From IMG/VR virus record IMGVR_UViG_3300027833_001544, positions 1 to 45,640 of that record: DNA of 45,640 nucleotides. One strand, given 5' to 3'. Under the pieces are notes generated by a model. It was not told the origin of the DNA, did not search any database, and saw nothing but the letters and a program-made list of their open reading frames with translations. Of the stretch, positions 16,746-34,368 are shown piece after piece. Source of the stretch: a virus. Each line of letters starts with the position of its first letter. Position 1 is the stretch's first letter. The position numbers were made by a program, and so were the translations under genes.

Positions 16746-17765
16746 ATGGTAGATTTTGTTGATATTCAGTATGCGCAGATGTTATCTGGTAGACTCGATA
16801 ATTTTAAAATACGTAACACAAATCCTTATAAAATTAATTTTCGGTGTCCTATTTGTGGTGACTCACAAAAGAGCCGATCTAAGGCCCGTGGATGGCTGTT
16901 GGAACGTGATAATAAGTTCTCCTACTATTGCCATAACTGCGGTGCTTCTCAGGGCTTCTCGTTCTTTCTAAAGGGCCAAGATCAGCAATTATACAATGAT
17001 TATATTGCTGATAAGTTTGTAGGTAAAGCCAACAATACTATCAAGGATACCAAAGAAAAAGCTGTTGACGATAGTAAATTTAAAACAAAAGCGCCCGCAT
17101 TTAATAAAACAAATCCCCTTTCCAAGATTAAAAAGATTAGTCAATTAAAGTTTGACCATCCAGTTAAACGTTATATTGAACAACGTAAAATACCTACGAG
17201 CCACCATTATCGTTTGTACTATGCTCCTAAGTTTAAAACATGGATCAACAGTATTATACCAGATAAATTTCCAAACTTTAAAAAAGATGAGCCACGTTTA
17301 ATCATACCATTCCTTGATGAAAGTGGTAATTGCTTTGGTGTATCAGCTCGTGGATTTGATCCTGATGGAATTAGATATATAACTATATTGTTTGAAGAAA
17401 GGCCGAAGATTTTTGGTTTAGATAAAGTTGATTTCAGTCAGCCTTATTATATTGTTGAAGGTGCTATTGATAGTATGTTCCTTGAAAATGCTATTTCTAT
17501 GAATGGTGCTGAAGGCAATGGTAACTCTGCTAGTGAAAATGCGATATACGTATTTGATGCAGAGCCACGTAATAAGGAAATTTGCGATCGCATGGAAAAA
17601 GTAATTAAAGCTGGTTATAAAGTTTGTATATGGCCAGAAAACGTTCCTGCGAAAGACATCAACGATATCTACATGAAAGGGTTTGATCCAGAAAAAATGA
17701 TAGAAGAAAATATCTACCAAGGTTTGGTAGCTGAATTGAAATTTGCTAATTGGAGGAAATCGTGA
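16746..17765 (+). CDS. DNA primase (T4 gp61-like)
   Basis: A 339-residue protein, close to T4 gp61 length. Residues about 35-66 form a zinc-binding motif (CPICGDS ... CHNCGASQGF) as in bacterial and phage primases. The catalytic TOPRIM region shows YYIVEGAIDSMFLENA followed by YVFDAEPRNKEI, supplying the Glu and Asp metal ligands. It makes RNA primers for lagging-strand synthesis with the phage helicase, which is not in this window. Tandem sigma-70 promoters upstream indicate early expression. A GTG-started 51-codon gene overlaps its stop. Confidence 0.85.
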   Translation: MVDFVDIQYAQMLSGRLDNFKIRNTNPYKINFRCPICGDSQKSRSKARGWLLERDNKFSYYCHNCGASQGFSFFLKGQDQQLYNDYIADKFVGKANNTIKDTKEKAVDDSKFKTKAPAFNKTNPLSKIKKISQLKFDHPVKRYIEQRKIPTSHHYRLYYAPKFKTWINSIIPDKFPNFKKDEPRLIIPFLDESGNCFGVSARGFDPDGIRYITILFEERPKIFGLDKVDFSQPYYIVEGAIDSMFLENAISMNGAEGNGNSASENAIYVFDAEPRNKEICDRMEKVIKAGYKVCIWPENVPAKDINDIYMKGFDPEKMIEENIYQGLVAELKFANWRKS

Positions 17766-17917
17766 ACTTACTCAATTTAAAACCAGAATTAATAGAAAAC
17801 ATAATTAAAACACTTGAACCGTCGAAAGATAAAGAATGGCTTGAGCTACAGTTTAAAGAACAGCAAACAGGTGGCGCATGGAAAGCCCGCCTCCGAGAAC
17901 AAGGATACGTAATATGA
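17762..17917 (+). CDS. Small protein between primase and thyX (51 aa)
   Basis: GTG start overlapping the primase stop, preceded by GGAGG at 17752-17756, and ending on an ATGA overlap with thyX. The product (LNLKPELIENIIKTLEPSKD, then LELQFKEQQTGGAWKARLRE) is helical and charged with no known family. Strong ribosome site plus overlaps at both ends support a real gene. Confidence 0.6.
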   Translation: MNLLNLKPELIENIIKTLEPSKDKEWLELQFKEQQTGGAWKARLREQGYVI

Positions 17918-18582
17918 AAGCTAGACTAATTGCCTACTCACAGCCAGTAAAAGGTGAAGTTATTGGATTAGATGATGTACAAGATTTGATTGCGTATTGC
18001 GCAAGAGTGTCAAATCCGTCAAACCAGTTGAACCAAGAAACGGCGCCTAAGCTACTTAATTACTTGGCAAAACATTCTCATTGGTCTCCATTTGAAATGG
18101 CTAACGCTACATTGGAAATTGAAACAACTCGCGATATTGCACGTCAGATGCTACGTCACCGTTCATTTGCCTTCCAAGAGTTTAGTCAACGCTATGCTGA
18201 TATTCGTGACTTAGATAATAAAATGGTTGTTCGTAAAGCTCGATTACAAGATCCAAAAAATCGCCAAAACAGTGTTATGACTGATGATGTAGCACTGCAC
18301 ATGGCTTGGGAAGTTCATCAACGTGGTGTATGGCAGGAAGCTATGAAATCATATGCATGGGCTATTGAAAATGGTATTGCAAAAGAACAGGCTCGTGCTA
18401 TCTTACCTGAAGGTAATACACCAAGTCGTTTATATATGCAAGGTTCTATTCGTTCATGGATCCATTATATTGAATTACGTTCGTCTAATGGAACACAACA
18501 AGAACATATGGATATTGCTATCGCCTGCGCCGAAGCTATTACAAAAATCTTTCCGTCTATGGAAAATTTTATTGAAAAATAA
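17914..18582 (+). CDS. thyX: Flavin-dependent thymidylate synthase
   Basis: A 222-residue protein. The start at 17914 gives MKARLIAYS; an upstream in-frame reading would overlap the small preceding gene. The ThyX signature RHRSFAFQEFSQRYAD is at residues 81-96, with R81, H82, R83 and S91-R93-Y94 in the expected places. HSHWSPFEM, the first flavin-contact region, is at 54-62. The C-terminus IRSWIHYIELRSSNGTQQEH is conserved. ThyX converts dUMP to dTMP using CH2-THF, FAD and NADPH. It belongs with the adjacent ribonucleotide reductase genes in dNTP supply. Confidence 0.92.
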   Translation: MKARLIAYSQPVKGEVIGLDDVQDLIAYCARVSNPSNQLNQETAPKLLNYLAKHSHWSPFEMANATLEIETTRDIARQMLRHRSFAFQEFSQRYADIRDLDNKMVVRKARLQDPKNRQNSVMTDDVALHMAWEVHQRGVWQEAMKSYAWAIENGIAKEQARAILPEGNTPSRLYMQGSIRSWIHYIELRSSNGTQQEHMDIAIACAEAITKIFPSMENFIEK

Positions 18583-18607
18583 TGTTTCCAAAAATAATTT
18601 ATTTTTA

Positions 18608-18636
18608 TTGACATTTGCGTCAATATATGGTATAGT
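18608..18636 (+). promoter_or_regulatory. Sigma-70 promoter of the nrd operon
   Basis: TTGACA at 18608-18613, 17-base spacer, TATAGT at 18631-18636. The resulting leader before nrdB is about 115 bases, the longest in the window. Confidence 0.75.
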
Positions 18637-18640
18637 AAGT

Positions 18641-18648
18641 TATAAATA
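18641..18648 (+). promoter_or_regulatory. T4-type late promoter TATAAATA
   Basis: Exact late core placed 4 bases after the early -10 box. It may allow nrdB-nrdA-hemA transcription to continue late in infection. Confidence 0.45.
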
Positions 18649-18700
18649 CAGCTACCAGTTGACTCCAGCGGTCAATGAATATCCAATTAGAATAAGCAAT

Positions 18701-18721
18701 GTAGTGCCCTTTGGGTACCAC
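18701..18721 (+). promoter_or_regulatory. Leader hairpin upstream of nrdB
   Basis: 18701-18709 pairs with 18713-18721 (9 positions, one A-C mismatch, one G-T) around a TTT loop. No long T-run follows, so it is not a standard terminator. It may affect mRNA stability or regulation in the long nrd leader. I see no match to a known riboswitch. Confidence 0.35.
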
Positions 18722-18759
18722 TTTGTTTACACACATTAACATATAAAGAGGCGCCAAGG

Positions 18760-20052
18760 ATGTTAGAAAATACCCAACCAATTTCCAATGTAATAGAATT
18801 ACCTAGACTAGTTAGTTATGTAACTAAAAGGAACGGAACCACGAAGGATTTCGACAAAGATAAAATTACGTTTGCAGTAGATAAAGCAATGAAAGGTATT
18901 GGAATCAGAAGTAAAAACTTATCAAGTGAAATTACTTCAGAGGTAGTTGAAGCTATCAACAATGAATCAACTGATGTTATCGTAGACGTTGATACTATTC
19001 ACAAGACAGTTGAAAATGTTATTATGGATATGGGATTACACGATTTGGCGCGTGAATATATCTTGTTTCGTTATAACAATAAACCTGACATTTTTCGTAA
19101 ACGTGCAGCGTTAAAGCCATATGAGTACCCACAATTAGTTGAATACACTGATGCTATTCGACATTCATATTGGGTACATACAGAGTTCAATTACTCTTCA
19201 GATATCCAAGATATGAAAGTTAAAATGTCAGAACCAGAAGTTGAAATCGTAAAGAAAGCTATGTTGGCTATTTCTCAGATTGAGGTCGCGGTTAAAACAT
19301 TTTGGGCAAAGATTGGCGATCGTTTCCCTAAGCCAGAAGTAGCAGCAGTAGGAATTACATTTGGCGAATCAGAAGTACGTCATGCTGATGCGTATTCAAA
19401 TCTAATTGAAATAATGGGTCTTAACGAAGAGTTTGAAAAGGTAGTTGAAGTACCGGCTATGAAAAAGCGTATTGCTTACCTTGAGCAATCAATTGGTGCC
19501 CCAGCAGATGATAAAGACTATTTCCACAAAATTATTCTATTCTCTATGTTTGTGGAAAACGTTTCATTGTTTAGCCAATTCCTTATTATGATGGCTTTCA
19601 ATAAACATAAGAATGTACTCAAAGGTATTTCAAACGCCGTTGAAGCTACATCAAAAGAAGAAGATATTCACGCTCGTTTTGGTTTTGAACTAGTGAATAT
19701 TATTAGAGAAGAAAACCCGGATTGGTTCGACAAAGACAGTAACGCAGAAGTTAATCGTCTATGTCGCGACGCATTCAAAGCAGAGTCTGCAATCGTTGAT
19801 TGGATTTATGGCGACCACGATTTAGACTTTTTACCAAAAGCAACAGTGAAAGAATTCCTAAAGCATCGTTTCAATCAATCGTTGAAAGCTATTGATATGA
19901 AGCCTTTATATGAGGTAGACGAAGAGGCGGTCGCAAGTACTGACTGGTTTGTAGAAGAAATCCTGAGTACCAAAAATGTTGACTTTTTCGTCAAGCGTTC
20001 AACCGCTTATTCAAAGAAAACCAAGGCCTTCACCGAGGATGACCTTTTTTAG
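18760..20052 (+). CDS. nrdB: Class I ribonucleotide reductase beta subunit with N-terminal ATP-cone
   Basis: A 430-residue protein. Residues about 14-107 are an ATP-cone (VTKRNGTTKDFDKDKITFAV, then VDTIHKTVENVIMDMGLHDL), normally found on the large subunit. Residues 130-400 are the beta fold: E175 as first iron ligand, FGESEVRHADAY with E205, H208 and radical Tyr212, MFVENVSL with E266, and EEDIHARFG with E301 and H304. ATP-cone NrdB proteins are known, with dATP control acting through beta (Leeuwenhoekiella type). The partner NrdA lacks a cone, which fits. An early promoter and a long leader precede it; nrdA follows after 11 bases. Confidence 0.9.
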   Translation: MLENTQPISNVIELPRLVSYVTKRNGTTKDFDKDKITFAVDKAMKGIGIRSKNLSSEITSEVVEAINNESTDVIVDVDTIHKTVENVIMDMGLHDLAREYILFRYNNKPDIFRKRAALKPYEYPQLVEYTDAIRHSYWVHTEFNYSSDIQDMKVKMSEPEVEIVKKAMLAISQIEVAVKTFWAKIGDRFPKPEVAAVGITFGESEVRHADAYSNLIEIMGLNEEFEKVVEVPAMKKRIAYLEQSIGAPADDKDYFHKIILFSMFVENVSLFSQFLIMMAFNKHKNVLKGISNAVEATSKEEDIHARFGFELVNIIREENPDWFDKDSNAEVNRLCRDAFKAESAIVDWIYGDHDLDFLPKATVKEFLKHRFNQSLKAIDMKPLYEVDEEAVASTDWFVEEILSTKNVDFFVKRSTAYSKKTKAFTEDDLF

Positions 20053-20063
20053 AAAGATATATT

Positions 20064-21764
20064 ATGAGAAAATACAAAAAATTCTATTGGCTAAATGATG
20101 ACTCCAAGACATTCTTGTCACGAGGTTATCTAGCAGAAAAAGAAAAGCCACAAGACAGAATACGTTTTATTGCTGATAAAGCTGAATGGTATTTAAAGGA
20201 CATGGCAAAGACAAAAACAGGTAAAGCCAACTACGATGGCTTTGCTGATAAATTTTATGACTATATGAGTCGTGGATTTTATTCATTAGCATCACCTATT
20301 TGGGCTAACTATGGTAAAGAACGAGGTTTACCAGTATCATGTTTTGGTTCGTACATTGATGATAGTATGCAAGCCATTTTGTTTGGTCATGCCGAAAATG
20401 GTATGTTAATGAAAAACGGTGGTGGTACATCAGGTTACTTTGGTGCAATCAGGCATCGTGGTGCTGGTATCAGAGACTCAGGTGAGTCTTCAGGTTCAGT
20501 ACACTTCATGCAGATGTATGATACATTGGCGTCAGTTGTATCTCAAGGTTCAGTACGTCGTGGTTTCTTTGCTGCATACCAAGATATTGAACATCCAGAT
20601 GCTGATGAGTTTTTAGATATTGGTACAGAAGGTAATCCTATACAAGGGTTGACAACTGGTATCAATGTTAGTAATAAATTCATTGATGAAATGAAAGCTG
20701 GAGATCCTGATAAGCGTAGACTATGGGCAAAGGTACTACAACGTCGTTCTGAAATTGGTTTCCCTTATATTCTGTTTTCAGATAACGTAAACGATGGTCG
20801 ACCACAAGTATATAAAGATAAGGATATGAGAGTACACGCTTCAAATATGTGTGCTGAAATTGCATTACCATCTTCACATGAAGAAACATTCACATGCGTA
20901 TTATCATCGCTTAATGTTTTACATTGGGACGAGATTAAAGACACAGATGCAATTGAAACATTGACTATGTTCCTTGACACAGTATGTGAAGAATTTGTTC
21001 GTAAAACAGCTGGTCAAATCTACATGAAACGTGCGCGTGATTTTGCTATGAAACACCGTGCTCTTGGCGCTGGTATTTTAGGATGGCATTCTCATTTACA
21101 ATCTAAAATGATTTCATTTGAGTCAAAAGAAGCTGCTCAGTTAAACCTCGAAATTGCTAAAACAATGCAGGAAAAATCATACGAGGCTTCTCGTCAGATG
21201 GCCAAAACATTAGGTGAACCAGAATTACTTGAAGGTTATGGAATGCGTAATACTACAACGATGGCTATTGCTCCTACCAAATCATCAAGCTTTATTCTTG
21301 GCCAAGTATCTCAATCTATTGAACCAGAATTTTCCAACGCTTATGTTAAAGATTTAGCTAAAATGAAAGTTACTATTCGTAATCCATATTTAAAAGAATT
21401 ATTAATAGCAAAAGAAAAAGATACACCAGACGTATGGGAGTCAATCAAAAATAGAGATGGCTCAGTTCAACACCTTGAGTTCTTAACTGAAGAAGAACGT
21501 TCAGTATTTAAAACATTCTCAGAAATTAGTCCAAATACTATTATTGACCAAGCTGCTATTCGACAAGAATACATTGACCAATCTCAAAGTTTAAACCTGA
21601 TGCTTGACCCAGATATGACAGTTAAAGATATTAACGCACTATATCTATATGCAAATGAGATGGGTGTGAAAAGTTTATATTACGCTTACTCAATGTCAGC
21701 AGCTCAATCGTTAACTCGTAAACGCGTTTCTATGGGCGCAGATTGCGCGGCATGTGAAGCTTAA
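20064..21764 (+). CDS. nrdA: Class I ribonucleotide reductase alpha subunit, no ATP-cone
   Basis: A 566-residue protein, about 190 shorter than T4 or E. coli NrdA because the N-terminal ATP-cone is absent. All catalytic groups are visible: C93 (GLPVSCFGS) paired with C278 (TFTCVLSSLN), N261-C263-E265 (NMCAEI), radical-path Y539-Y540 (SLYYAYSMS), and a C-terminal C561-x-x-C564 redox pair for glutaredoxin or thioredoxin. It reduces ribonucleotides with the NrdB encoded just upstream. A glutaredoxin gene at 34031 may serve as reductant. hemA begins 4 bases after its stop. Confidence 0.93.
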   Translation: MRKYKKFYWLNDDSKTFLSRGYLAEKEKPQDRIRFIADKAEWYLKDMAKTKTGKANYDGFADKFYDYMSRGFYSLASPIWANYGKERGLPVSCFGSYIDDSMQAILFGHAENGMLMKNGGGTSGYFGAIRHRGAGIRDSGESSGSVHFMQMYDTLASVVSQGSVRRGFFAAYQDIEHPDADEFLDIGTEGNPIQGLTTGINVSNKFIDEMKAGDPDKRRLWAKVLQRRSEIGFPYILFSDNVNDGRPQVYKDKDMRVHASNMCAEIALPSSHEETFTCVLSSLNVLHWDEIKDTDAIETLTMFLDTVCEEFVRKTAGQIYMKRARDFAMKHRALGAGILGWHSHLQSKMISFESKEAAQLNLEIAKTMQEKSYEASRQMAKTLGEPELLEGYGMRNTTTMAIAPTKSSSFILGQVSQSIEPEFSNAYVKDLAKMKVTIRNPYLKELLIAKEKDTPDVWESIKNRDGSVQHLEFLTEEERSVFKTFSEISPNTIIDQAAIRQEYIDQSQSLNLMLDPDMTVKDINALYLYANEMGVKSLYYAYSMSAAQSLTRKRVSMGADCAACEA

Positions 21765-21767: not shown

Positions 21768-22964
21768 ATGAACTATTTGAAATATTTTGAAAATACAGTT
21801 AAAGAATTTAAAGCCGATGGCAGATACAGAGTCTTTAACGATATACTTAGAGAGCGAGGGGTTTTCCCTCGCTCAATCTGGTACGGTAAGTATGGGCCAA
21901 AAAATATAGTAAATTGGTGCTCAAACGACTACTTAGGTATGGGACAAAACCAATATGTTATAGATGCTATGCATACAGCTCTAGATCAAACTGGTGCTGG
22001 CTCAGGAGGTACTCGCAATATTGGCGGTACATCACATTACCACGTTACACTAGAACGCACTTTGTCTAAACTCCACAATACAGAAGCAGCTCTGGTATTT
22101 ACTAGCGCGTATGTTGCGAATGAATGGTCACTTATTGCTTTATCTAAAATTATACCAGACTTATGTTTTATTTCTGACAGTAAAAACCATGCCTCAATTA
22201 TTATGGGTATGGTAAACAGCAGAGCAGAAAAACTAATATTTGAACATAATGATATGGCTGATTTAGAGAAGAAACTTAAACTGGCTATCAAACGTAAACT
22301 TAATCCTGTAATTGTATTTGAGTCAATATATTCAATGGATGGAGATGTATCACCTATAAAATCTATAATTGATCTGGCGTATAAATATAAGGCAATGACT
22401 TATATAGATGAAGTTCATGCAGTAGGTCTTTATGGTAAAACCGGCGCTGGGTACTGTGAAGAGCTAAACTTATATTCTGATAGTATCGACATCATCAACG
22501 GTACATTAGGCAAAGCATACGGCGTCCAAGGAGGTTACATTGCAGGTAATCAAACAATTATTGACGCTATTAGATCGACTGCCAGTGGCTTCATATTCAC
22601 TACCAGTATGTCACCAGTCATATGTGCTGGGGCTCTCGCCAGTATAAATTATCTAAAGGATCACAATTCCCTTAGAGAAAAACATCAAGAACGTGTTGCC
22701 AAACTCAAAGGCATGCTTATTGATGCAGGAATAAACATTCATCCGAACGCTTGTACTCACATTCTACCAGTGATGGTCAATGATGCGTTTAAATGCAAAG
22801 AAGCTTCGGATAGATTGATAAACGAATTCGGTATATACATACAACCGATTAATTCTCCAACAGTGGAGCAAGGTACAGAGCGATTACGTATCGCACCTAC
22901 TCCATACCATACCGATATAATGATGGTAGAATTAGTCGAAGCTCTGAAAGAAGTATTAAAATGA
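21768..22964 (+). CDS. hemA: 5-aminolevulinate synthase
   Basis: A 398-residue protein of full family length. It follows alphaproteobacterial ALAS closely: [27 protein letters not shown] (53-60), [17 protein letters not shown] (76-92), [19 protein letters not shown] (185-193), [12 protein letters not shown] (D214, H217), and [14 protein letters not shown] with the PLP lysine K249. The C-terminal [15 protein letters not shown] is also conserved. It condenses glycine and succinyl-CoA to 5-aminolevulinate, the first step of heme synthesis by the C4 route. No other heme synthesis gene is in the window. It lies 4 bases after nrdA and overlaps the next gene's alternative start. Related alpha-oxoamine synthases (KBL, BioF) are less likely given the ALAS-specific spacing. 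Confidence 0.9.
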
Positions 22965-23005
22965 ATCAATTAGAAAATGCTTTTTTCAGCAAAAAGGAAA
23001 ATATT

Positions 23006-23440
23006 ATGGTTAAGATTAAAAAAGCCTTTTGGTTTGTACTAGGCATCCTCTTGGTAGGCGTTGCCTATCTTGGTGTAATACTGCCCGGACTACCATGGAG
23101 TACACCTATTTTAGGGGCAACGTTTTGCTTTGCCAAGTCCTCCGACCGTTTACACAACTGGATTATGAACCATCCGAGGTTTGGTCCGTTTGTTAAAAAC
23201 TGGTCAAAACTAAGAGTTTACCCTCAAAAAGCAAAATACTTAATGGTTGCAGTAATGTCAACATCATTAGGATTTATGTTCTTTGGAACAGGAAATGTAA
23301 AAGCAACATTATACATGTTTATTACATTCGCATTAATCGTTATTTGGGCATGGCGTTACCCAGGTAGTAAAGCGGAAGCAGAACGTCGACTTGAAGCTGG
23401 TGAAAAAATTGGCTGGTTAAAGAACAAGGAAAAGAAATGA
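23006..23440 (+). CDS. DUF454/YbaN-like inner-membrane protein
   Basis: A 144-residue protein; the start at 23006 follows AAAAAGGAAA. An in-frame ATG at 22961, overlapping the hemA stop, is an alternative that would add 15 residues. The sequence VLGILLVGVAYLGVILPGLP, then FCFAKSSDRLHNWIMNHPRFGPFVKNW, is the DUF454 (YbaN) signature; three to four membrane segments follow. The function of the family is not established. Its position between hemA and a porin-like gene suggests a link to tetrapyrrole or envelope traffic, but that is inference. Confidence 0.78.
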   Translation: MVKIKKAFWFVLGILLVGVAYLGVILPGLPWSTPILGATFCFAKSSDRLHNWIMNHPRFGPFVKNWSKLRVYPQKAKYLMVAVMSTSLGFMFFGTGNVKATLYMFITFALIVIWAWRYPGSKAEAERRLEAGEKIGWLKNKEKK

Positions 23441-24381
23441 AAACACTTACAAGTACTATTATCGCATCACTTATGGCATCAGGTGCCATGGCTGGTGGAC
23501 ACGATCAAACAGAAGCAAAAGACGGTCCTTTTATTAATGGTACATTTGAAATCTACATTGACGATACGAATACGGAAGGTCATGTTGATACACGATTTGA
23601 AGCAGTAGGCGGATATGAAACAGAACTTGAGCACCCATTCGCGGATTGGGCTGGATTTTCTGCTAAGTTTGATACTAACTATGCATTAGATCGTACATTA
23701 GATAATACAATTACTGAGAAACAAATGGGTCTTGGTATTGGTGGTGCGAGATTGTATATTGGTGAAACAGACGTACAACGTTTAGGTTTTGCTAAGACAT
23801 CAAAAATTGGTGCACCAGTTATTATTACGAAAAAGAACTCGCGTATTGACCACCAAGAAAAGATTGCTCTTACATTTGGTGGATGGGGATATAACGATGA
23901 GTTTGCATTCAACAGTTATCGTTTACAAAGAGATATGCCATACGCTGGTGTAGTCGCTTGGGATCCAGAAACAAAAGCAATGTATTACGGTGTAACAGCT
24001 CGTGCAAAAATTGTTGACGTATCATATATGCAAATTGATACACAAGACGGTGAAACGCAAAAAGGTATGTCAATCGGTACATCTTTACATCGAATGGGTA
24101 TTCCAATCGGTCTAGGATATGAGCAATGGGAAGATAAAGAAAATACTCGTAAAGATTATGGTATTATGTATAACTATAGTAAAGAATTAATGTTTACTGC
24201 GCATAATGTAACGGATGATGATTTAGGATTTACATATAACTATATCGCAGCTATCCATACAAAAGGTCCAGTTGAACTAGGTCTTTATTACCATAATGAT
24301 AAAGTACAAGTAAATCCATGGACTCGCCAAACATCGAACATTGAAGATAGTGTAAAGGCAACAATTAAATATAAATTTTAA
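23437..24381 (+). CDS. Outer-membrane porin-like beta-barrel protein
   Basis: A 314-residue protein with ATGA overlap. It has a clear Sec signal peptide (KTLTSTIIASLMASGAMAG, cut near residue 20). The rest shows alternating polar/hydrophobic strands with Gly and aromatic residues (GTFEIYIDDTNTEG, VDVSYMQIDTQ, LGLYYHNDKVQ) and ends KATIKYKF. A C-terminal Phe is the outer-membrane insertion signal. The length fits a 12-16-stranded barrel of general porin type. Phage porins (the lambdoid lc/nmpC type) can replace host receptors and block superinfection. Here it could also import a substrate used by the neighbouring metabolic genes. Confidence 0.75.
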   Translation: MKTLTSTIIASLMASGAMAGGHDQTEAKDGPFINGTFEIYIDDTNTEGHVDTRFEAVGGYETELEHPFADWAGFSAKFDTNYALDRTLDNTITEKQMGLGIGGARLYIGETDVQRLGFAKTSKIGAPVIITKKNSRIDHQEKIALTFGGWGYNDEFAFNSYRLQRDMPYAGVVAWDPETKAMYYGVTARAKIVDVSYMQIDTQDGETQKGMSIGTSLHRMGIPIGLGYEQWEDKENTRKDYGIMYNYSKELMFTAHNVTDDDLGFTYNYIAAIHTKGPVELGLYYHNDKVQVNPWTRQTSNIEDSVKATIKYKF

Positions 24382-24454: not shown

Positions 24455-25480
24455 ATGTCAAAAAGAATTCTGATTACCGGCGGTGGTGGTTTTATCGCGC
24501 ACCACTTAATTAACCAAGTACTTAAACAAACCGACTGGGAAATTATTACAGTTGACCGTTTGGATTATAGCGGTAATTTAAACAGATTACATGATCTCTT
24601 ACAAGAACGTACTGCAGAAGAACGCAAACGTCTTCGTACAATTTTCCACGATTTAAAAGCTGAATTTAATCCAATGCTCGTTGCAGATATTGGACCAATT
24701 GATATTGTAGCTCACTTGGCTGCAGGTTCACACGTAGATCGTTCTATTGATTTTCCAATGGAATTTGTTATGGATAATGTTGTTGGTACATGTAACATTT
24801 TAGAGTTTGCCCGTAAACAAGAAAACCTTGAACGCTTCCTATATTTCTCAACTGATGAAGTATTTGGACCAGCGCCAGAAGGTGTTAACTATGATGAATA
24901 CGATCGCTATAATTCAACTAATCCGTACTCGGCTTCAAAGGCTGGTGCTGAAGAACTTTGTGTAGCCTATCAAAACTCTTATGATATGCCAATTTATATT
25001 ACACATACTATGAATGTATTTGGCGAAAGACAGCATCCCGAGAAATTTATTCCTATGACTATTCGTAATGTACGAGATGGTGGTAAGGTAACAATCCATA
25101 GTGATGCGTCAAAAACAATCCCAGGATCTCGTCATTATATCCATGCCGAAGATGTGGCAGATGCAACACTGTTTCTATTAGAACACGAAGGTACATTAAA
25201 CATTACCAACAACGCTGGCGTTAAATGTCCAAAGTTTAATATCTGTGGTGCAACTGAATTGAATAACCTAGAGTTAGCTCAAATGATTGCTGATGCTCAA
25301 GGTAAGCCACTTAATTATGAGTTTATGGATTTCCATAGTTCTCGACCTGGGCATGATTTACGATATGCTTTAAGTGGTAATAGAATGAAAGAAATGGGAT
25401 GGGAACCAAAGCCAGTACAAGAACGTATTGCTGAGGTAGTTAATTGGACATTAGACAACAGAAGGTGGTTAGACATATGA
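24455..25480 (+). CDS. dTDP-glucose 4,6-dehydratase-like NAD-dependent epimerase/dehydratase
   Basis: A 341-residue short-chain dehydrogenase of extended type. It has the N-terminal nucleotide motif ITGGGGFIAHH, HLAAGSHVDRSIDFP, FSTDEVFGPAPEG with the T-D-E triad of 4,6-dehydratases, and the catalytic YSASKAGAEEL. PFRxxDxR-type C-terminal features appear as SSRPGHDLRYAL. It is expected to make a 4-keto-6-deoxy NDP-sugar. The next gene overlaps by 4 bases. It is the first gene after the UUCG hairpin, with a GAAGGAG ribosome site. The exact sugar nucleotide cannot be told. Confidence 0.85.
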   Translation: MSKRILITGGGGFIAHHLINQVLKQTDWEIITVDRLDYSGNLNRLHDLLQERTAEERKRLRTIFHDLKAEFNPMLVADIGPIDIVAHLAAGSHVDRSIDFPMEFVMDNVVGTCNILEFARKQENLERFLYFSTDEVFGPAPEGVNYDEYDRYNSTNPYSASKAGAEELCVAYQNSYDMPIYITHTMNVFGERQHPEKFIPMTIRNVRDGGKVTIHSDASKTIPGSRHYIHAEDVADATLFLLEHEGTLNITNNAGVKCPKFNICGATELNNLELAQMIADAQGKPLNYEFMDFHSSRPGHDLRYALSGNRMKEMGWEPKPVQERIAEVVNWTLDNRRWLDI

Positions 25481-26055
25481 GTTTCGTACAATTTATAGAA
25501 GGCGAATATAATAACGCCAAGAATACATTTTCCGATATTAACGAGCATCTTGAGTTGCTATTTAATTTAGGAATGGAATGTGAACATATTACAGAGATGG
25601 GAGTGCGTGATGGTCAAAGTACCAAAGCATTCCTTAATACCAATGCAGCTTTGAGATCATATGATATTGAATTGAACTGGGAAGTAAGTGAGTTATTTAA
25701 ACGAGCTAAAACCGTAGGTAAAGATGTTGTATACGAAAAGGCAAACGTACTAAATATTGATATAGAACAAACTGATTTACTCTTTATTGATACATGGCAC
25801 TCTGGTTCACAATTAAAACGTGAGCTAGCAATGCATGGTAATAAAGCAAATAAGTTCCTTGTTTTCCATGATACTCAAACATATGGCTGCAGAGATGAAA
25901 AAGAAAACTGGAGAGATTTCGCTGATAAACGACCAATGCCTAATGAAGGTTTAATTGGACCAATCGTTAACTTTGTTATTAACAATCCTGAGTGGAGATT
26001 TAAAGAATTCCGAACTAATAATAACGGACTTACTGTACTTGAGAGGACCAAGTAA
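25477..26055 (+). CDS. Methyltransferase-like protein (CmcI-like fold)
   Basis: A 192-residue protein with an ATGA overlap at 25477. An SAM-binding-like strand ITEMGVRDGQSTKAFL is at about residues 37-52. DLLFIDTWHSGSQLKRELAM follows at about 105-124, and FLVFHDTQTYGCRDE at about 133-147. The pattern H-S-G/H-D-T is like cephalosporin hydroxylase/methyltransferase-type proteins found in sugar clusters. Its close link to the dehydratase and GT17 genes suggests sugar O-methylation. Confidence 0.6.
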   Translation: MSFVQFIEGEYNNAKNTFSDINEHLELLFNLGMECEHITEMGVRDGQSTKAFLNTNAALRSYDIELNWEVSELFKRAKTVGKDVVYEKANVLNIDIEQTDLLFIDTWHSGSQLKRELAMHGNKANKFLVFHDTQTYGCRDEKENWRDFADKRPMPNEGLIGPIVNFVINNPEWRFKEFRTNNNGLTVLERTK

Positions 26056-27596
26056 TGATTGTTGATTGCTTTCCATTTTTTGCTCCTACTGGAGTTGAAC
26101 TCTTAAAACTTAGGGTTAATCTTTTAAAAGATGTAGTGGATAAGTTTATTATTGTTGAGTCTAATAAAACACACAGCGGTAAACCAGTTGAACGTAAATT
26201 TTTAGAGATTGCACGTCAACAAGGTTTGCCAATGGAAAGGATCCATTATGTTGAACATGACATCGCTGAACAAGAAGACTTAGAAATATTAAAAGTTGAT
26301 AGAATTAATGCTGGAGCAAATAGAGATAGTGAAAACTCTTTATATGCTAGAGTACGTGAACGTCTACAAAAAGATGCTGTCATGCAAGCAATGGATAACT
26401 TTAATGACGATGATGTATTCATATATGGTGATGCAGATGAAATCATTAAACCAGAGAATGTTAAATGGGTTGCTCAGATGTGTAGAGGTAATCCTGAAAT
26501 TATTCTTAAAATACCATTGGCGTATTTACAAGGGCGCGCAGATTTAAGAGCATTTAATACTGATGGCAGCCATGTAGTTTGGTGGAAAGCCATGTTCTTT
26601 GCAACTAAAAAACAAATTATGGAAACATCTGTAAATAGAATACGATGTGGCGCCATGCATTACCCTGTTCGATGGCCGACACACCAAAATAAAATCATTC
26701 AGGATATGGGTTGGCACTTTGCATGGATGGGTGGAGCTGAAACTCGTAAAGTTAAAGCCGACTCTTTTGCACATGCCTATGACTCATTTAAATGGATGGA
26801 AGATATTAGAGGTTATAGTGAATATTCCAAACTTGACGAGAGTTTAATGGAAGAGGGACCAGCGCCAGACGGAAATAATACTCATATCTTAAAAAGATTT
26901 CCAATTAATAAATTACCAGAGTTAGCACTTAACGATCCTGAGATTAGAGAATTCCTATTACCTACAACCAAATTAGATAAAGACTTTCAATTTAATAAGT
27001 GTAATTGCTTTTGGTGTCAAAAGCTTAAGTTCCCGTTAATGTATAACCTTGATGGTAAACAAAATTGGTTTGAAATACCAAGAAGTTGTAGTGTAACCGT
27101 TAAAGAAACATTCCCAGATCGTAAACAAGTGTTTAGAGATACTGACGAATATGATGATGCAAGAGGTAGACCACTTGTTGTTTACTCAGATCCTGTTGAA
27201 AGGTTCGTTTCGTGTATTAATGCTTATGTTACTGAAAAGCAAAGGTATTACCATTATGGTGAAGATATATTTGCTACATTTGGTGTTGAACTGAGTAAAT
27301 GTACTAAACAGGAAAAGATTGATTACTTCTTTGCAAATTTACATAAAATTGGTTCAGCACATCAATTACACCATTTCCATCCACAAGCATTGTTTATTGA
27401 TATAGATAAATTTGTTGGATTTACAGTAATTAAAAAACATGATGTATGCAGCCATTTTGGAATAACACATAAGCTAAATCAAACTAAAAAAGAAATAACT
27501 GAAAAAGATTTTAGTAAAGAGCAAATCGAGTTTATTAAAAACGTTTATAAAGTAGACTATGACTTTTACGAGAAGTACGGCAATGAAGGTCCATAA
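26055..27596 (+). CDS. GT17 glycosyltransferase fused to a sulfotransferase-like domain
   Basis: A 513-residue two-domain protein. Residues 1-310 are a family 17 glycosyltransferase: MIVDCFPFFAPTGVELLKLR, FIIVESNKTHSGKP, NDDDVFIYGDADEI with D126-A-D128, and MGWHFAWMGGAE. Residues about 330-513 look like a sulfotransferase: a CNCFWC pair, NWFEIPRSCSVTVKETF in place of the PAPS P-loop, VVYSDPVERFVSCINAY as the 3'-phosphate site, and a typical end VYKVDYDFYEKYG. Such an enzyme could add a GlcNAc-like sugar and sulfate it. The P-loop Lys-Thr of classical enzymes is replaced by Arg-Ser-Cys, so activity is uncertain. The fusion seems unusual. Confidence 0.75.
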   Translation: MIVDCFPFFAPTGVELLKLRVNLLKDVVDKFIIVESNKTHSGKPVERKFLEIARQQGLPMERIHYVEHDIAEQEDLEILKVDRINAGANRDSENSLYARVRERLQKDAVMQAMDNFNDDDVFIYGDADEIIKPENVKWVAQMCRGNPEIILKIPLAYLQGRADLRAFNTDGSHVVWWKAMFFATKKQIMETSVNRIRCGAMHYPVRWPTHQNKIIQDMGWHFAWMGGAETRKVKADSFAHAYDSFKWMEDIRGYSEYSKLDESLMEEGPAPDGNNTHILKRFPINKLPELALNDPEIREFLLPTTKLDKDFQFNKCNCFWCQKLKFPLMYNLDGKQNWFEIPRSCSVTVKETFPDRKQVFRDTDEYDDARGRPLVVYSDPVERFVSCINAYVTEKQRYYHYGEDIFATFGVELSKCTKQEKIDYFFANLHKIGSAHQLHHFHPQALFIDIDKFVGFTVIKKHDVCSHFGITHKLNQTKKEITEKDFSKEQIEFIKNVYKVDYDFYEKYGNEGP

Positions 27597-27831
27597 AGGT
27601 GCGGCAAGTATAGACATTCTTAGATTAGAGATTAAAGAACTAAACAAAGATATAAATGCATGTTATAATGAAATGGATACATTACGAAATCAAAATATGA
27701 TGCTACTCGAAGTATTAACAGATCTGACTGGTGACGAAAGTTATTGGTCAGATCAAGCCAAAGCATCAGGTTTAGTTTTTAAACTAACAAACGTTTTAAC
27801 TCAAATAAAAAGTAACTTTGGCCATAATTAG
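27583..27831 (+). CDS. Small coiled-coil protein, unknown
   Basis: An 82-residue protein; the start at 27583 lies inside the end of the GT17 gene in another frame. Residues 12-45 are a predicted coiled coil (LRLEIKELNKDINACYNEMD). The remainder is helical. No family recognised. Confidence 0.55.
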   Translation: MKVHKGAASIDILRLEIKELNKDINACYNEMDTLRNQNMMLLEVLTDLTGDESYWSDQAKASGLVFKLTNVLTQIKSNFGHN

Positions 27832-27834
27832 CTA

Positions 27835-27863
27835 TTGACATTTAGTATAGAATCGGTTATATT
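27835..27863 (+). promoter_or_regulatory. Repeated early promoter cassette (copy 1)
   Basis: TTGACA at 27835-27840, 17-base spacer containing ATAGAATCGGT, TATATT at 27858-27863, then AGAATCAACAAATATAA. Part of a family of near-identical promoters in this window (also at 30600, 34310, 34940, 36405, 40675, 41127). It drives the SleB-like gene. Confidence 0.85.
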
Positions 27864-27895
27864 AGAATCAACAAATATAACATTGAGGCTAAATT

Positions 27896-28411
27896 ATGAA
27901 AATTAAAACGGCAATTTGCGCACTTCTTATCAATACGACTGCCTTCGGCGGGTTCATTTATACGGGCTCCAAACTGAACGCTCAGGACCTCCAAGATACA
28001 TTAATTGAGTTTCACTCAAAAGAGCTCGAGTGTATGGCTCTAAACATCTATTACGAGACCAGAGCAGCCTCTCTGATTGATGCAATATCAGTATCTGATG
28101 TGGTATTAAATCGTGTTGAAAGTTCGCGTTATCCTTCAACTGTTTGTGATGTAGTACATGACGGTTATAAGCCTGGTCGTAAGACATGTCAGTTCTCTTG
28201 GTATTGCGATGGCAAATCAGATGTACCACAAGATGATGAATCTTGGGAAAAGTCACGTAAACATGCTCGTGATATGTATGTACATAGAGAACATCGTGGC
28301 ATTACAGAAAGCGCAACACATTATCATGCTACATACGTATCCCCTTATTGGGCACCGTCTATGCATAGAGTAGCACGTATGGGTTCACACATCTTTTATA
28401 GAGAAGACTAA
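27896..28411 (+). CDS. Cell wall hydrolase, SleB-type, with N-terminal export signal
   Basis: A 171-residue protein. Residues 1-30 form a signal peptide or anchor (KIKTAICALLINTTAFGGFI). The rest is a Hydrolase_2 (SleB) domain: ELECMALNIYYETRAA with the expected catalytic Glu region, SDVVLNRVESSRYPSTVCDV, KTCQFSWYCDG, and ATHYHATYVSPYWA. SleB enzymes are lytic transglycosylases acting on peptidoglycan. It sits directly behind an early promoter, unlike the late GH19 endolysin. It may remodel the wall early, for instance for host resistance to superinfection or particle entry, or serve as an exported lysin. Confidence 0.85.
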   Translation: MKIKTAICALLINTTAFGGFIYTGSKLNAQDLQDTLIEFHSKELECMALNIYYETRAASLIDAISVSDVVLNRVESSRYPSTVCDVVHDGYKPGRKTCQFSWYCDGKSDVPQDDESWEKSRKHARDMYVHREHRGITESATHYHATYVSPYWAPSMHRVARMGSHIFYRED

Positions 28412-28412
28412 T

Positions 28413-28541
28413 ATGGTACAGATTAAAGCATATTGGAAGGACAAAAAAGTTAATAAATACTTCGCATGCAGTATTGATGCGCAAGAATATCGAGAATGGC
28501 TTGATGCAAGATATGCTAAAGTCATTTGGATAAATCATTAA
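28413..28541 (+). CDS. Small protein (42 aa), unknown
   Basis: ATG directly after the SleB stop, 42 codons, TAA. The product (QIKAYWKDKKVNKYFACSID, then EYREWLDARYAKVIW) is small and Trp/Tyr-rich. Supported by tight packing and the SD of the next gene right behind it; no homology seen. Confidence 0.45.
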   Translation: MVQIKAYWKDKKVNKYFACSIDAQEYREWLDARYAKVIWINH

Positions 28542-28551
28542 GGAGACTTAA

Positions 28552-28869
28552 ATGTCAGATGAACGTTATGTAGTAACGACCGTCATTTCAACACACAGAA
28601 TGCGTTATGCTATTCCTGTCAGTGCACTAGAAAAAGATGGTGAGTTGCCAACAATCCCAGAAGCTATTGAATGGACGAACGACTCAGTAACTATGGAAGA
28701 AGTAAAAGAATTTTCTCAGCATTGGATGGGCGAGAATATCGTTGATACATTTGTGTTAGATGAAGAACGTGTTATTCAATTATTTGATAGAGATAATCCT
28801 CATGTAGCTAATATGACTAAAGAAGAAAAACTTAAACAAATCCATAATTGGAAAGAAAAAACAAAATGA
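28552..28869 (+). CDS. Hypothetical phage protein, unknown
   Basis: A 105-residue acidic protein with AAGGAG 8 bases upstream. The segment RYVVTTVISTHRMRYAIPVS at the start looks like a beta hairpin, and the rest is helical with many Glu/Asp. No family recognised. Its stop overlaps the dehydrogenase start (ATGA). Confidence 0.6.
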   Translation: MSDERYVVTTVISTHRMRYAIPVSALEKDGELPTIPEAIEWTNDSVTMEEVKEFSQHWMGENIVDTFVLDEERVIQLFDRDNPHVANMTKEEKLKQIHNWKEKTK

Positions 28870-29618
28870 ACATCGTAATATGCGGACACGGTTTTGTTGG
28901 TAAGGCTCACGGATTAGTATTATCATCAAACCACGATATTAAAGTATGGGATCCAAATTTAGGATATAAAGATAAATCAGTATTTAAAAATGCTGATGCT
29001 GTTATCATTGCAGTGGCAACACCAGAAGGTGAAGATGGTGAATGCAATATGAGAAATGTATATGATTGCGCAGAATTATGCGATAAAGAAACTCCTGTGT
29101 TAATAAAATCAACCATAAGCCTCGAAGGTTGGAGATTACTAAAGGTCCGACCTAATGCTGACAAATTAACTTTTTCACCAGAGTATTTACGGGCAGCCCA
29201 TGCATTTGAAGATTTTAAAAGCCATACATCAATTTCTATAGGTGGTGGTGATACTAGCTTTTGGATTGATATATTGTCAAATTCGTTAGGTGTACGTGTT
29301 GATATTAAAGATCCTGAGGTTTTAATTTTAACTAAATGTTTTCGTAATGCATTCTTAGCAACAAAGGTAGCTTTCTTTAATCAAATATATGATATGGCAA
29401 AAAGAGCAGATGTTGATCCTGCTGAAGTATTAATGAATGTAAGCGATGATCCTCGTATTGGTAAAAGCCATACATATGTTAATGAAGACGACCGTGGCTT
29501 TGGTGGACATTGTTTTCCTAAAGATACGAGTGCTATTGTACATAGTGCAAATAAATCAGGCTATGATTTGAGTTTAATAAATGAAGCAGTTAGATATAAT
29601 AAAGGAATACGTGAATGA
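28866..29618 (+). CDS. UDP-glucose/GDP-mannose dehydrogenase-like protein (short)
   Basis: A 250-residue protein. It has a Rossmann start NIVICGHGFVGKAHGLVLS, DAVIIAVATPEGEDG, and LIKSTISLEGW. TFSPEYLRAAHAFEDFKSH follows, in place of the usual sequence after S-P-E-F-L. The catalytic region GFGGHCFPKD is present with its Cys. The C-terminal UDP-binding domain of full-length enzymes (about 390-430 residues) is missing, as in some phage versions. It would oxidise an NDP-sugar to a uronate. Given the truncation, dimerisation or donor specificity may differ. Confidence 0.8.
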   Translation: MNIVICGHGFVGKAHGLVLSSNHDIKVWDPNLGYKDKSVFKNADAVIIAVATPEGEDGECNMRNVYDCAELCDKETPVLIKSTISLEGWRLLKVRPNADKLTFSPEYLRAAHAFEDFKSHTSISIGGGDTSFWIDILSNSLGVRVDIKDPEVLILTKCFRNAFLATKVAFFNQIYDMAKRADVDPAEVLMNVSDDPRIGKSHTYVNEDDRGFGGHCFPKDTSAIVHSANKSGYDLSLINEAVRYNKGIRE

Positions 29619-29824
29619 GTAAAATAGAATATAATGATGTCTGCCAAATGACTAGTACCCTTACAGATGTATCAGTTGAGGTTGAGGCAGATAACATGAA
29701 GCCTGGAATTTCCTTTGAAGCTTGGGTAGCAAATCAACGAATTAAGTTGCGTTGGAATGGTAAGATATATGTTGGCAGAGTAGCCAATATGGAATTTACA
29801 TCCATGGGCCCTAAAGAATTATGA
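29615..29824 (+). CDS. Small protein, unknown (69 aa)
   Basis: A 69-residue protein with ATGA overlap to the dehydrogenase and a 4-base overlap with the next gene. The middle (VSVEVEADNMKPGISFEAWV, then KLRWNGKIYVGRVANMEF) has beta-strand character like a small SH3-like domain. No family recognised. Confidence 0.6.
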   Translation: MSKIEYNDVCQMTSTLTDVSVEVEADNMKPGISFEAWVANQRIKLRWNGKIYVGRVANMEFTSMGPKEL

Positions 29825-30228
29825 TTGTTGGTTTTACAGCATCTGCATTTGATTTGCTCCATGCAGGTCATGTTCAAATGTTGCGCGAAGCAAAAAGCCA
29901 ATGTGACTATTTGATATGTGGATTGCAAACAGATCCAAGCTTAGATAGAAAAGAAAAGAATAAACCAATCCAAACTGTAGTTGAGCGATATACGCAGCTT
30001 AAGGCATTATCATATGTTGATGAAATTATTCCATATAACACTGAGGAAGACTTAAAAGACTTGTTGACATTATATGCAATTGATGTTAGAATATTAGGAG
30101 TGGAATATAAAACTCAAGAGTTTACTGGTAAGGATATATGCCAAAAGCGTGGCATTGATTTATATTTTAATAAAAGGGATCACCGGTTCAGTACGAGTGA
30201 TCTAAGAAAGAGAGTTTGTAATGACTGA
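29821..30228 (+). CDS. Cytidylyltransferase (glycerol-3-phosphate/TagD-like)
   Basis: A 135-residue protein of the single-domain length typical of TagD and RfaE C-domain enzymes. Motifs are GFTASAFDLLHAGHVQML (HxGH as H-A-G-H), the nucleotide-side CDYLICGLQTDPS, and RFSTSDLRKRV in place of the RTxGISTT motif. It would make a CDP- or NDP-activated polyol or sugar. Position among sugar genes fits surface polymer synthesis. Confidence 0.82.
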   Translation: MIVGFTASAFDLLHAGHVQMLREAKSQCDYLICGLQTDPSLDRKEKNKPIQTVVERYTQLKALSYVDEIIPYNTEEDLKDLLTLYAIDVRILGVEYKTQEFTGKDICQKRGIDLYFNKRDHRFSTSDLRKRVCND

Positions 30229-30400
30229 AGGACCATTTAAAAGCGCATTTGAATCAGACGTTGATGGCGTTATTCGTAGAGAAATTGTAACATATCGTAT
30301 GAAAGGTGATGTAATGATTAAAGAAACAGCAACACGAGATTATTATAAATCTGGTGATTACCATGATAGTGTTTCAACTCAACCATTGGTGTCGCGATGA
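30221..30400 (+). CDS. Small protein (59 aa), unknown
   Basis: ATG at 30221 inside the 3' end of the cytidylyltransferase gene, 59 codons, ending in an ATGA overlap with the next gene. The product (TEGPFKSAFESDVDGVIRRE, then TATRDYYKSGDYHDSVS) contains a motif like short host-takeover peptides of marine phages. No function known. Confidence 0.55.
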   Translation: MTEGPFKSAFESDVDGVIRREIVTYRMKGDVMIKETATRDYYKSGDYHDSVSTQPLVSR

Positions 30401-30591
30401 TAGAAGCACGTATACCATATGATGTAAATAAAGTTATGCAAGAAGACTTAAAACTAATTGATGTTATACAAGTATTGGCTAACGAGGAAACAAATCCTAT
30501 TGCTAAAAAGACATTGCGAAAAGTAATTAGTAGGCTTATTAATTTAACCAGTAAAGCACATACTCGTGGTCATTGGACTGGAAGTGAGTAA
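30397..30591 (+). CDS. Small protein (64 aa), unknown
   Basis: ATGA overlap at its start; 64 residues, mainly helical (KVMQEDLKLIDVIQVLANEE, KKTLRKVISRLINLTSK). No family recognised. The next early promoter begins 9 bases after its stop. Confidence 0.55.
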   Translation: MIEARIPYDVNKVMQEDLKLIDVIQVLANEETNPIAKKTLRKVISRLINLTSKAHTRGHWTGSE

Positions 30592-30599
30592 ATTAGCTA

Positions 30600-30628
30600 T
30601 TGACATTCCTTGTATTTTTGTTTATAAT
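30600..30628 (+). promoter_or_regulatory. Repeated early promoter cassette (copy 2)
   Basis: TTGACA at 30600-30605, 17-base spacer, perfect TATAAT at 30623-30628, then AGAATCAGTAAACAAAGGA. Flanks (GCTATTGACATT, AGAATCA) match the family, though the spacer lacks ATAGAATCGGT. Confidence 0.82.
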
Positions 30629-30651
30629 AGAATCAGTAAACAAAGGAATAC

Positions 30652-30834
30652 ATGATGGTAAGTCATATTTGGTCAATAGTAGTTATCACCTTAATGGAAG
30701 GCGATGTACATAACTATTCATATATTAAAGATTACGAAGATCGTTTTACATGCGAAATAAATAAAGCTGTGTTTGAAACACATTTTGGTCCATTTGCTGA
30801 TAACGAAAAAGTAAGGTGCTTAATTAAATCGTGA
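30652..30834 (+). CDS. Small protein (60 aa), unknown
   Basis: First gene behind the 30600 promoter, with AAAGGA upstream. ATG at 30652 or 30655. The product (SHIWSIVVITLMEGDVHNYS, then CEINKAVFETHFGPF) has a weakly hydrophobic start and two cysteines. The carbamoyltransferase GTG overlaps its stop. Confidence 0.55.
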   Translation: MMVSHIWSIVVITLMEGDVHNYSYIKDYEDRFTCEINKAVFETHFGPFADNEKVRCLIKS

Positions 30835-32192
30835 ACAAAATATTAGGTCTAAGCGAAGGATTTCACGACGCTGGCGCCACGTTAATCCAAAACGGTAAAA
30901 TATTATCAGCTACCCATGCTGAAAGAATAAGTCGTGTTAAAAATGATAGATGGTTACATTATACCCAAATAGAATATGCTGATACCACTGCCTTTTACGA
31001 AAAGGATTGGTTAAAAAGAACACGCCAAATATATGCTAGACAACCTTATGCAAAGCCACGTATTAAAACAGATGTTTCTTTTTACCATCACCAGTCTCAT
31101 GCCGCGGCAGGTTTCTATACATCAAAATTTGACGAATGTAACATATTAGTCGTTGACGCTATTGGTGAATGGGATACTATTTCTATTTGGAAAGGCTTTA
31201 CTAAAAACAACAAACCAAAAATGAAAAAGATTAAATCATTTAAATATCCATACTCAATTGGATTGTTTTATTCAGCAATTACAAAGTACATTGGTTTAAG
31301 ACCGATGGAAGATGAATATATAACAATGGGTATGGCTGGTTATGGTGATCCTACTGATTCGTTATTAATGGAAAATATACTAAAGAATGTTAATTGTCAT
31401 AAAGGTTTACCTGACCTACCAGAGTTACGTCATATAAGTAAAGAAGATATGGCTGCCTCTGCTCAAAGTGTTATTGAACGTGAACTTACTAAATTGGTAT
31501 TAAACCATTGCCCTTCACGTAATCTTGTTATGATGGGTGGTGTGGCTCTTAATTGTGTTGCTAATAGTAAAATAGCAGGACTAGGTAAAAATATTTGGAT
31601 TATGCCAAACCCAGGTGATTGTGGATCGTCTCTTGGTGCAGCTGCGTTAGCGTATGGTAAAAAATTAAAATGGGTTGATCCATACCTTGGAACGGATATA
31701 AAAAATGATATTAAAATTAAAGAAGTTGTTAAGCATCTTATTGACCATAGTTATTGTGGTATTGCAAATGGTCGTAGTGAGTTTGGCCCTCGTGCCCTTG
31801 GCAATCGTAGCCTTATCGCTGACCCTAGACGAGATATTAAGGACACTATTAATCAAGTTAAACGGCGACAACAATTTCGACCCTTTGGACCTGCGATCTT
31901 GGAAGAATACGCTGATGAATATTTCAAAGGACCAATGAACGAATATATGCAATTCGTAGCAAAAGCAAAACATGATTATAAATCAGTAACACATGTTGAT
32001 GGCACTTCTCGAGTTCAAATAGTTAAACCGGATTGTAAATCAGTTATACGACCTATCCTTGAAGAATGGTATGAGCAAACAGGATGCCCAATGTTATTAA
32101 ATACAAGTTTAAACATCAAAGGTCAGCCAATGGTTGATACTTGGGAAGATGCATTATCATTTCAAAAGGAATATAATGTCAAAGTCTTCTAA
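30831..32192 (+). CDS. Carbamoyltransferase (NodU/CmcH family)
   Basis: A 453-residue protein, GTG start overlapping the previous stop. N-terminal Kae1-like part: GLSEGFHDAGATLIQNGKIL, AERISRVKNDRW, HHQSHAAAGFY with metal-binding His, VVDAIGEWDT. Then GMAGYGDP, MMGGVALNCVANSKI, and NPGDCGSSLGAA. The C-terminal YrdC-like carbamoyl part shows RSEFGPRALGNRSLIADPR and FRPFGPAILEEY. It transfers carbamoyl from carbamoyl phosphate via ATP to a hydroxyl on a sugar or antibiotic. It is about 100 residues shorter than NodU. It lies in the sugar module and probably decorates a glycan. Confidence 0.88.
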   Translation: MNKILGLSEGFHDAGATLIQNGKILSATHAERISRVKNDRWLHYTQIEYADTTAFYEKDWLKRTRQIYARQPYAKPRIKTDVSFYHHQSHAAAGFYTSKFDECNILVVDAIGEWDTISIWKGFTKNNKPKMKKIKSFKYPYSIGLFYSAITKYIGLRPMEDEYITMGMAGYGDPTDSLLMENILKNVNCHKGLPDLPELRHISKEDMAASAQSVIERELTKLVLNHCPSRNLVMMGGVALNCVANSKIAGLGKNIWIMPNPGDCGSSLGAAALAYGKKLKWVDPYLGTDIKNDIKIKEVVKHLIDHSYCGIANGRSEFGPRALGNRSLIADPRRDIKDTINQVKRRQQFRPFGPAILEEYADEYFKGPMNEYMQFVAKAKHDYKSVTHVDGTSRVQIVKPDCKSVIRPILEEWYEQTGCPMLLNTSLNIKGQPMVDTWEDALSFQKEYNVKVF

Positions 32193-33012: not shown

Positions 33013-33106
33013 ACTAAAATTTAAATACAGAATATTTAAAATGCGTTTTAAGAAATCAGAAATTAAACGTGATGATGATAAAGGATTTATATATGAAGAT
33101 GAATAG
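32993..33106 (+). CDS. Very small basic peptide (37 aa)
   Basis: An ATG inside the end of the SGNH gene opens 37 codons (KKFILKLKFKYRIFKMRFKK, then SEIKRDDDKGF) and ends inside the next gene's start region. It is strongly basic in its first half. Both ends overlap neighbours, so it may be translated, but support is positional only. Confidence 0.35.
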   Translation: MKKFILKLKFKYRIFKMRFKKSEIKRDDDKGFIYEDE

Positions 33107-33803: not shown

Positions 33804-34031
33804 ATGTTTACAATAGAAATGGATTGGGATGAAACAGCAATCACAGTCTTAGACCAAACAGGCGAAAATGAAGATGTACAATTTTTAATTTATGACGATG
33901 TGGCTTACATACGCCAATTTGATAATGATACAAATAGGTTTAGTGTAATTACAATGTCGCCAGATCAAATTGGAGAAATTATCGCATCAATGAACTTGCC
34001 GGAAGGCGCATATTTAATGGGAGAAAGATAA
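33804..34031 (+). CDS. Small acidic protein, unknown (75 aa)
   Basis: Begins directly after the PMM-like stop, with GAGG 10 bases upstream. A beta-rich acidic protein (WDETAITVLDQTGENEDVQF, YIRQFDNDTNRFSVITMSPD). I recognise the type from marine phages but have no function for it. Its stop overlaps the glutaredoxin ATG. Confidence 0.6.
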   Translation: MFTIEMDWDETAITVLDQTGENEDVQFLIYDDVAYIRQFDNDTNRFSVITMSPDQIGEIIASMNLPEGAYLMGER

Positions 34032-34285: not shown

Positions 34286-34309
34286 TTTGAAATTAAATCA
34301 AATTAACTA

Positions 34310-34338
34310 TTGACATTTGATATAGAATCGGTTATATT
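34310..34338 (+). promoter_or_regulatory. Repeated early promoter cassette (copy 3)
   Basis: TTGACA at 34310-34315, 17-base spacer ending ATAGAATCGGT, TATATT at 34333-34338, then AGTATTAACAAATATAAAAG. Nearly identical to copy 1 over more than 50 bases. Confidence 0.85.
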
Positions 34339-34368
34339 AGTATTAACAAATATAAAAGGAATCATTAA

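Follow-up and report, generated by a model that had tools for sequence, protein, structure and literature searches.

The ALAS gene and its phage context

The window, the whole 45,640-base stretch of DNA analyzed here, is one IMG/VR virus record and represents a 45.6-kb fragment of a marine T4-like phage genome. Its phage genes include a T4-type primase, a T4-type RNase H, an endolysin, PhoH and virion structural genes, and it is colinear with an 81.9-kb virus record (G033), sharing gene order and 88.8% nucleotide identity over 15 kb. A series of plus-strand genes leads from the T4-type DNA primase (16746..17765) through three genes assigned by family match, namely the FAD-dependent thymidylate synthase ThyX (17878..18582) and the two subunits of a class I ribonucleotide reductase: the small subunit, with an N-terminal ATP-cone (18760..20052), and the large subunit NrdA of the TIGR02510 type (20064..21764). 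NrdA ends 3 bases before a gene for 5-aminolevulinate synthase (ALAS) of the phage valaS type (21768..22964, plus strand), which is followed by a predicted membrane protein of the DUF454 (YbaN) family (22961..23440, plus strand) and by a reading frame with a signal-peptide-like start (23437..24381, plus strand). The latter has no family match, was read by eye as a possible outer-membrane barrel, and lies 3' of DUF454 in some relatives only. In four related loci (L021, L026, L030, and L138), the upstream ribonucleotide reductase pair (window region 17878-21764) is replaced by another, larger NrdA and another NrdB, with the ALAS-DUF454 pair retained. Two further regions of the window, 3355-8212 and 24455-41550, are rich in genes of the sugar, sulfotransferase, glycosyltransferase, carbamoyltransferase, and cytidylyltransferase kinds, a large complement for modifying surfaces or DNA.

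The ALAS reading frame starts with the ATG at 21768, ends with the stop codon at 22962-22964, and encodes 398 residues with no internal stops. The initial annotation described it as a full-length, probably functional ALAS with intact motifs and the PLP lysine K249, and both parts of this description were borne out. The protein matches the ALAS model TIGR01821 over residues 1-397 with 543.3 bits (cut-off 338.55); all 18 aligned viral members, the window's own included, likewise match the ALAS model. Among solved structures, its nearest matches are 7x98 (439 bits) and, further down, R. capsulatus ALAS (2bwn, 382.5 bits); bacterial and mitochondrial ALAS occupy the ranking from 439 to 328 bits, followed by the best KBL at 204 bits. 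The chance that the enzyme is instead an acyl-CoA:amino acid transferase of the KBL, BioF or serine palmitoyltransferase type is negligible: these enzymes share a superfamily with ALAS, and the protein reaches 309 bits against the KBL model, but the KBL and BioF scores (308.7 of a required 460 bits and 307.8 of 426.45) are more than 230 bits under the ALAS score, and the serine palmitoyltransferase model is likewise missed (309 bits or less). KBL/BioF identity was rejected on these scores. The ALAS active-site residues are also present, and in a tree that included KBL and BioF the window protein fell among alphaproteobacterial ALAS, with KBL and BioF outside on very long branches. The bacterial rows of that tree were picked by viral-ALAS patterns, so look-alikes are over-sampled in it.

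Lys249 aligns with the PLP lysine of the R. capsulatus enzyme and is kept in all 79 distinct viral ALAS, a set from which viral rows shorter than 385 residues and rows identical in the last 300 residues were left out, and in all 36 alphaproteobacterial ALAS. The same 79 viral proteins are identical at Arg21, Thr82, Asn84, Ile85, Ser136, His141, Ser189, Asp214, His217, Lys249, Thr365, and Arg374, and these 12 active-site positions recur in 36/36 alphaproteobacterial proteins, apart from one gap at Arg21. By analogy with the R. capsulatus structure, Arg21, Thr82, Asn84, Ile85, Thr365, and Arg374 (window numbering) would be substrate residues, all of which accompany the PLP lysine in the window protein; Ser136, His141, Ser189, Asp214, and His217 align with active-site positions of the same structure. 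The dN/dS ratio against six phage relatives (0.059-0.093) indicates purifying selection. Judged from sequence, the gene is thus an intact ALAS and probably encodes a working enzyme.

The protein is a full-length homolog of alphaproteobacterial HemA/ALAS (R. capsulatus, PDB 2bwn) with the same active-site residues, from which it differs in being at most 60% identical to any ALAS found in 240 alphaproteobacterial genomes and in lacking the heme-feedback residues, having a lysine at the His342 position and no cysteine in its last 20 residues. Wegner et al. (2024, Nat Commun 15:8783; PMC11480375) take the absence of such residues in many phage enzymes as an argument for 5-aminolevulinate (ALA) supply past the host's control point. 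In our comparison this argument is weak, because the histidine is also missing in 34 of the 36 sampled alphaproteobacterial ALAS; its absence is neither phage-specific nor discriminating.

The nearest ALAS genes in a bacterial gene context are 56-62% identical to the window gene, which could suggest that the contig is bacterial or chimeric and the gene a host hemA. We consider this next to impossible, as phage genes flank ALAS on both sides, the same gene order recurs in the colinear virus record, and ALAS is known here from 79 distinct viral genes; bacterial contamination was rejected on the flanking genes and on G033. In the phages collection, no close relative of the window ALAS was found: the best of 19 matching records was 37.5% identical, and the annotated ones among them carry KBL or BioF labels.

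Relation to known phage and bacterial ALAS

Phage ALAS as a gene kind is already published, and the window gene adds one more case. Wegner et al. reported phage alaS ('valaS') in marine and freshwater contigs, where it stands alone or, often, accompanies genes for heme oxygenase (hemO) and a bilin reductase, and placed it nearest to Pelagibacteraceae ALAS (~55%); the freshwater CB_2 valaS complemented an E. coli ALA auxotroph, and enzyme data were provided too. An entry-step enzyme is therefore not the different phage strategy that had been proposed for this gene. The present locus resembles the valaS described in that source in that it concerns ALAS of myovirus-type aquatic phages, with SAR11/Pelagibacteraceae proteins as closest bacterial kin, conserved active-site residues, and hemO and bilin reductase carried within its lineage as a cassette that has been broken up. 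It differs in that ALAS alone of these genes is seen on the window and in the DUF454 neighbor: the paper's main text names DUF454/YbaN nowhere, although its figures may display the gene without comment.

The main ALAS tree comprised 69 rows, of which 22 were labelled viral and 36 came from wider alphaproteobacterial searches, the published valaS sequences not being among them. All 22 viral rows, together with one bacterial row (L086), formed one starred group (97), so the window protein falls with the remaining phage enzymes and not with the bacterial ones, L086 being the sole bacterial intruder. Constraining the viral rows to one clade was not rejected (p-AU 0.84). The sister of this group is one SAR11 ALAS type (L087 and L255; joint group 99), while other SAR11 ALAS branch elsewhere. 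The same type gave the best match among the 240 alphaproteobacterial genomes (60%, next 56%). A plasmid-borne hemA of Rhizobium etli is 55% identical to the window ALAS, and neither hemO nor DUF454 is among its annotated neighbors. The intruding row (L086:5983-7170) comes from a Neisseriaceae genome (PsAf), where a phage-clade ALAS lies between bacterial genes with no DUF454 beside it and no DUF454 match anywhere in the genome; it is possibly a phage gene captured by a betaproteobacterium.

The gene had also been read as identifying an alphaproteobacterial host. Such a host is plausible, because both T4 core proteins that were compared have their nearest matches in Sinorhizobium phages (45-49%); the GC content of the window is about 36%, and a nucleotide similarity search for the host gave a single match of 0.7 kb, to Marine virus AG-345-L05, for which no host is named. 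ALAS by itself is no proof and was rejected as such, since PMC11480375 cites a valaS phage, TP6_1, for which a gammaproteobacterial host is proposed, and since the gene is rare in the closest bacterial group. In that group, a set of 147 genomes from the order of G070 (the genome holding L088), to which the SAR11 label is our assignment and whose genomes are of unestablished completeness, ALAS exceeded its family cut-off in 8 and HemB in 139 genomes, while glutamyl-tRNA reductase, GSA aminomutase, and DUF454 exceeded theirs in 0/147 each. Taken at face value, most of this putative SAR11 order would be without a recognizable ALA-forming enzyme, a point that needs checking. The tally does not fit the statement in PMC11480375 that Pelagibacteraceae use the Shemin pathway exclusively.

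The DUF454 gene and its linkage to ALAS

Read from the ATG at 22961, which shares 4 bases with the end of ALAS, the DUF454 gene gives a protein of 159 residues; a start at ATG 23006 would give 144. The protein belongs to PF04304, which it matches with 97.9 bits (cut-off 35.1), and 41/41 aligned phage-linked DUF454 proteins match the family at E 0.001. It is set apart from the DUF454/YbaN proteins of the phages collection, where the 7 matching records are less than 33% identical to it and are apparently bacterial DNA. Its AF2 model is mostly helical with a mean pLDDT of 86. Comparison with solved structures by sequence gave no match at E up to 1, Foldseek gave none at E 0.001 or less, and the best VIA hit had a Z of 5.4, within the range that the tool deems common for helical models. 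Purifying selection acts on this gene as it does on ALAS (dN/dS 0.036-0.124).

Among the 79 distinct viral ALAS, DUF454 lies downstream in 69 and upstream in one; in four the contig ends less than 700 bases after ALAS, and five are without it, so that the pair is present in 70 of the 75 loci with enough flank. The two genes are separated by at most 60 bases in 52 of the 70 paired loci. In an initial scan of viral contigs, 76/80 loci had DUF454, the other four breaking off in ALAS itself or no more than 170 bases from it; a second scan, many contigs of which are shared with the first, found it in 70/79 newly numbered loci. The five exceptions (L157, L158, L163, L167, and L169) show no DUF454 in the 2.6-6.0 kb after ALAS. 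The pair occurs in two phage backgrounds with few or no other common neighbors, one T4-like and the other characterized by HNH, AlgH-like, and virion structural genes. Protein distances of ALAS and DUF454 are correlated across 70 loci (Mantel r 0.75, 0/2000 permutations as high), a correlation that shared phage descent alone could produce.

In bacterial context, DUF454 is beside none of 62 ALAS-like loci, which include two KBL-like ones (L142 and L143) and several truncated where their contigs end. These 62 remain from 67 loci on genome contigs after five with the pair (L082, L083, L084, L085, and L138) were set apart as phage, judged by gene order or by neighbors resembling viral loci. Recounting L084 and L085 as bacterial changes the tally to 2/64. 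The phage call is weakest for L084, because phosphate-transport-like genes are also present: on this 335-kb contig, binned as Neomarinimicrobiota, a phage-clade ALAS and DUF454 lie near phosphate-binding-like and permease-like genes, and the contig may be bacterial or may belong to a large phage. In L138, an iron-sulphur cluster biosynthesis gene (PF01521; 7185-7535) lies between ALAS and DUF454. Anywhere in the genome, DUF454 was found in 3 of the 24 genomes holding bacterial ALAS loci.

Published passages connect the family to iron or heme. DUF454/YbaN is placed in the Fur regulon in PMC7157518, predicted to belong to it in PMC3224099, described in PMC7970244 as induced under iron restriction, and noted in PMC12282271 to co-occur with T11SS loci in which haem oxygenase is found as well; the passages on DUF454 with heme state no function for it. 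From the linkage, we infer that DUF454 and ALAS may share a role in heme metabolism. Our tentative proposal is that in these phages ALAS and DUF454 work as a single unit, co-selected in two or more types of marine phage, with DUF454 as an unrecognized part of heme metabolism; that part might be, for instance, export, delivery to the membrane, or a safeguard against heme and porphyrin. It is quite possible, if somewhat short of an even chance, that DUF454 is a bystander and that the two genes, both in an auxiliary region, share only a position or a promoter. The family has no known function, the spacing widens to 0.8-2.6 kb in some relatives, and in G042, the one large record among the five exceptions, DUF454 is 35 kb from ALAS, all of which fits a bystander. 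Against it, the pair is kept in those 70 of 75 distinct loci despite differing other neighbors across the two phage backgrounds, and DUF454 is itself under purifying selection.

Possible role in tetrapyrrole metabolism during infection

The initial annotation had set an ALA-forming enzyme against the bilin genes known from other phages. The relatives of the window speak against such an alternative: G033 carries hemO (27064) and bilin reductase (27957) as well as ALAS (near 57273) and DUF454 (58526), hemO and bilin reductase lying ~7 kb to the left of the extrapolated match to the window's first base. Among 50 related records, hemO exceeded its family cut-off in 14 and bilin reductase in 14; the 36 records without a hemO match are in the majority short fragments. 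Of the nine records of at least 80 kb, seven carry both genes and two (G040 and G045) carry neither. No hemO or bilin reductase was found among the part of the window's reading frames that was scanned against Pfam or PHROGs.

We consider it likely that a working valaS supplies ALA during infection, that the heme so made probably feeds the phage hemO and bilin reductase, and that DUF454 most likely acts with ALAS. The phage enzyme would condense glycine and succinyl-CoA to 5-aminolevulinate in the infected cell. ALA formation being the committed and normally regulated step of tetrapyrrole synthesis, the enzyme would bypass the host's control point and could sustain tetrapyrrole flux after host gene expression drops. 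The resulting heme would probably go to the heme oxygenase and bilin reductase, presumably encoded elsewhere in the genome and off the window, whose presence in the lineage would link it to turnover into bilins and iron. The overlapping DUF454 gene would contribute a small membrane protein, most likely acting with ALAS in heme or iron handling. That this particular copy is active, which way flux would run, and what part DUF454 would play are inferred.

An alternative we regard as unlikely is that the main effect of ALAS is to deplete succinyl-CoA and glycine, or to produce a signal of bilin or porphyrin type, with heme supply incidental. Net heme may indeed not rise, because relatives carry hemO and bilin reductase, and PMC11480375 calls the co-occurrence of downstream enzymes enigmatic. 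A drain alone, however, leaves the co-occurrence with hemO, bilin reductase, and DUF454 unexplained, and this co-occurrence therefore argues for tetrapyrroles rather than a mere drain.

The window gene extends a published class of phage auxiliary genes. The class is common, with at least 585 related stretches in the second viral-contig scan. The less expected result is the DUF454 neighbor of phage ALAS, absent from the main text of PMC11480375. If the SAR11 tally is upheld, the route of heme synthesis in SAR11 and the role of phage ALAS there become directly testable, and, should the host prove to be SAR11-like, infection would bring in both an ALA-forming enzyme and a DUF454 protein that are mostly missing from that order. 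If the proposed partnership is true, a widespread, Fur-regulated orphan family of the inner membrane would gain a place in heme metabolism; the conserved DUF454 neighbor offers a concrete and cheap lead to the function of this orphan membrane family induced at low iron.
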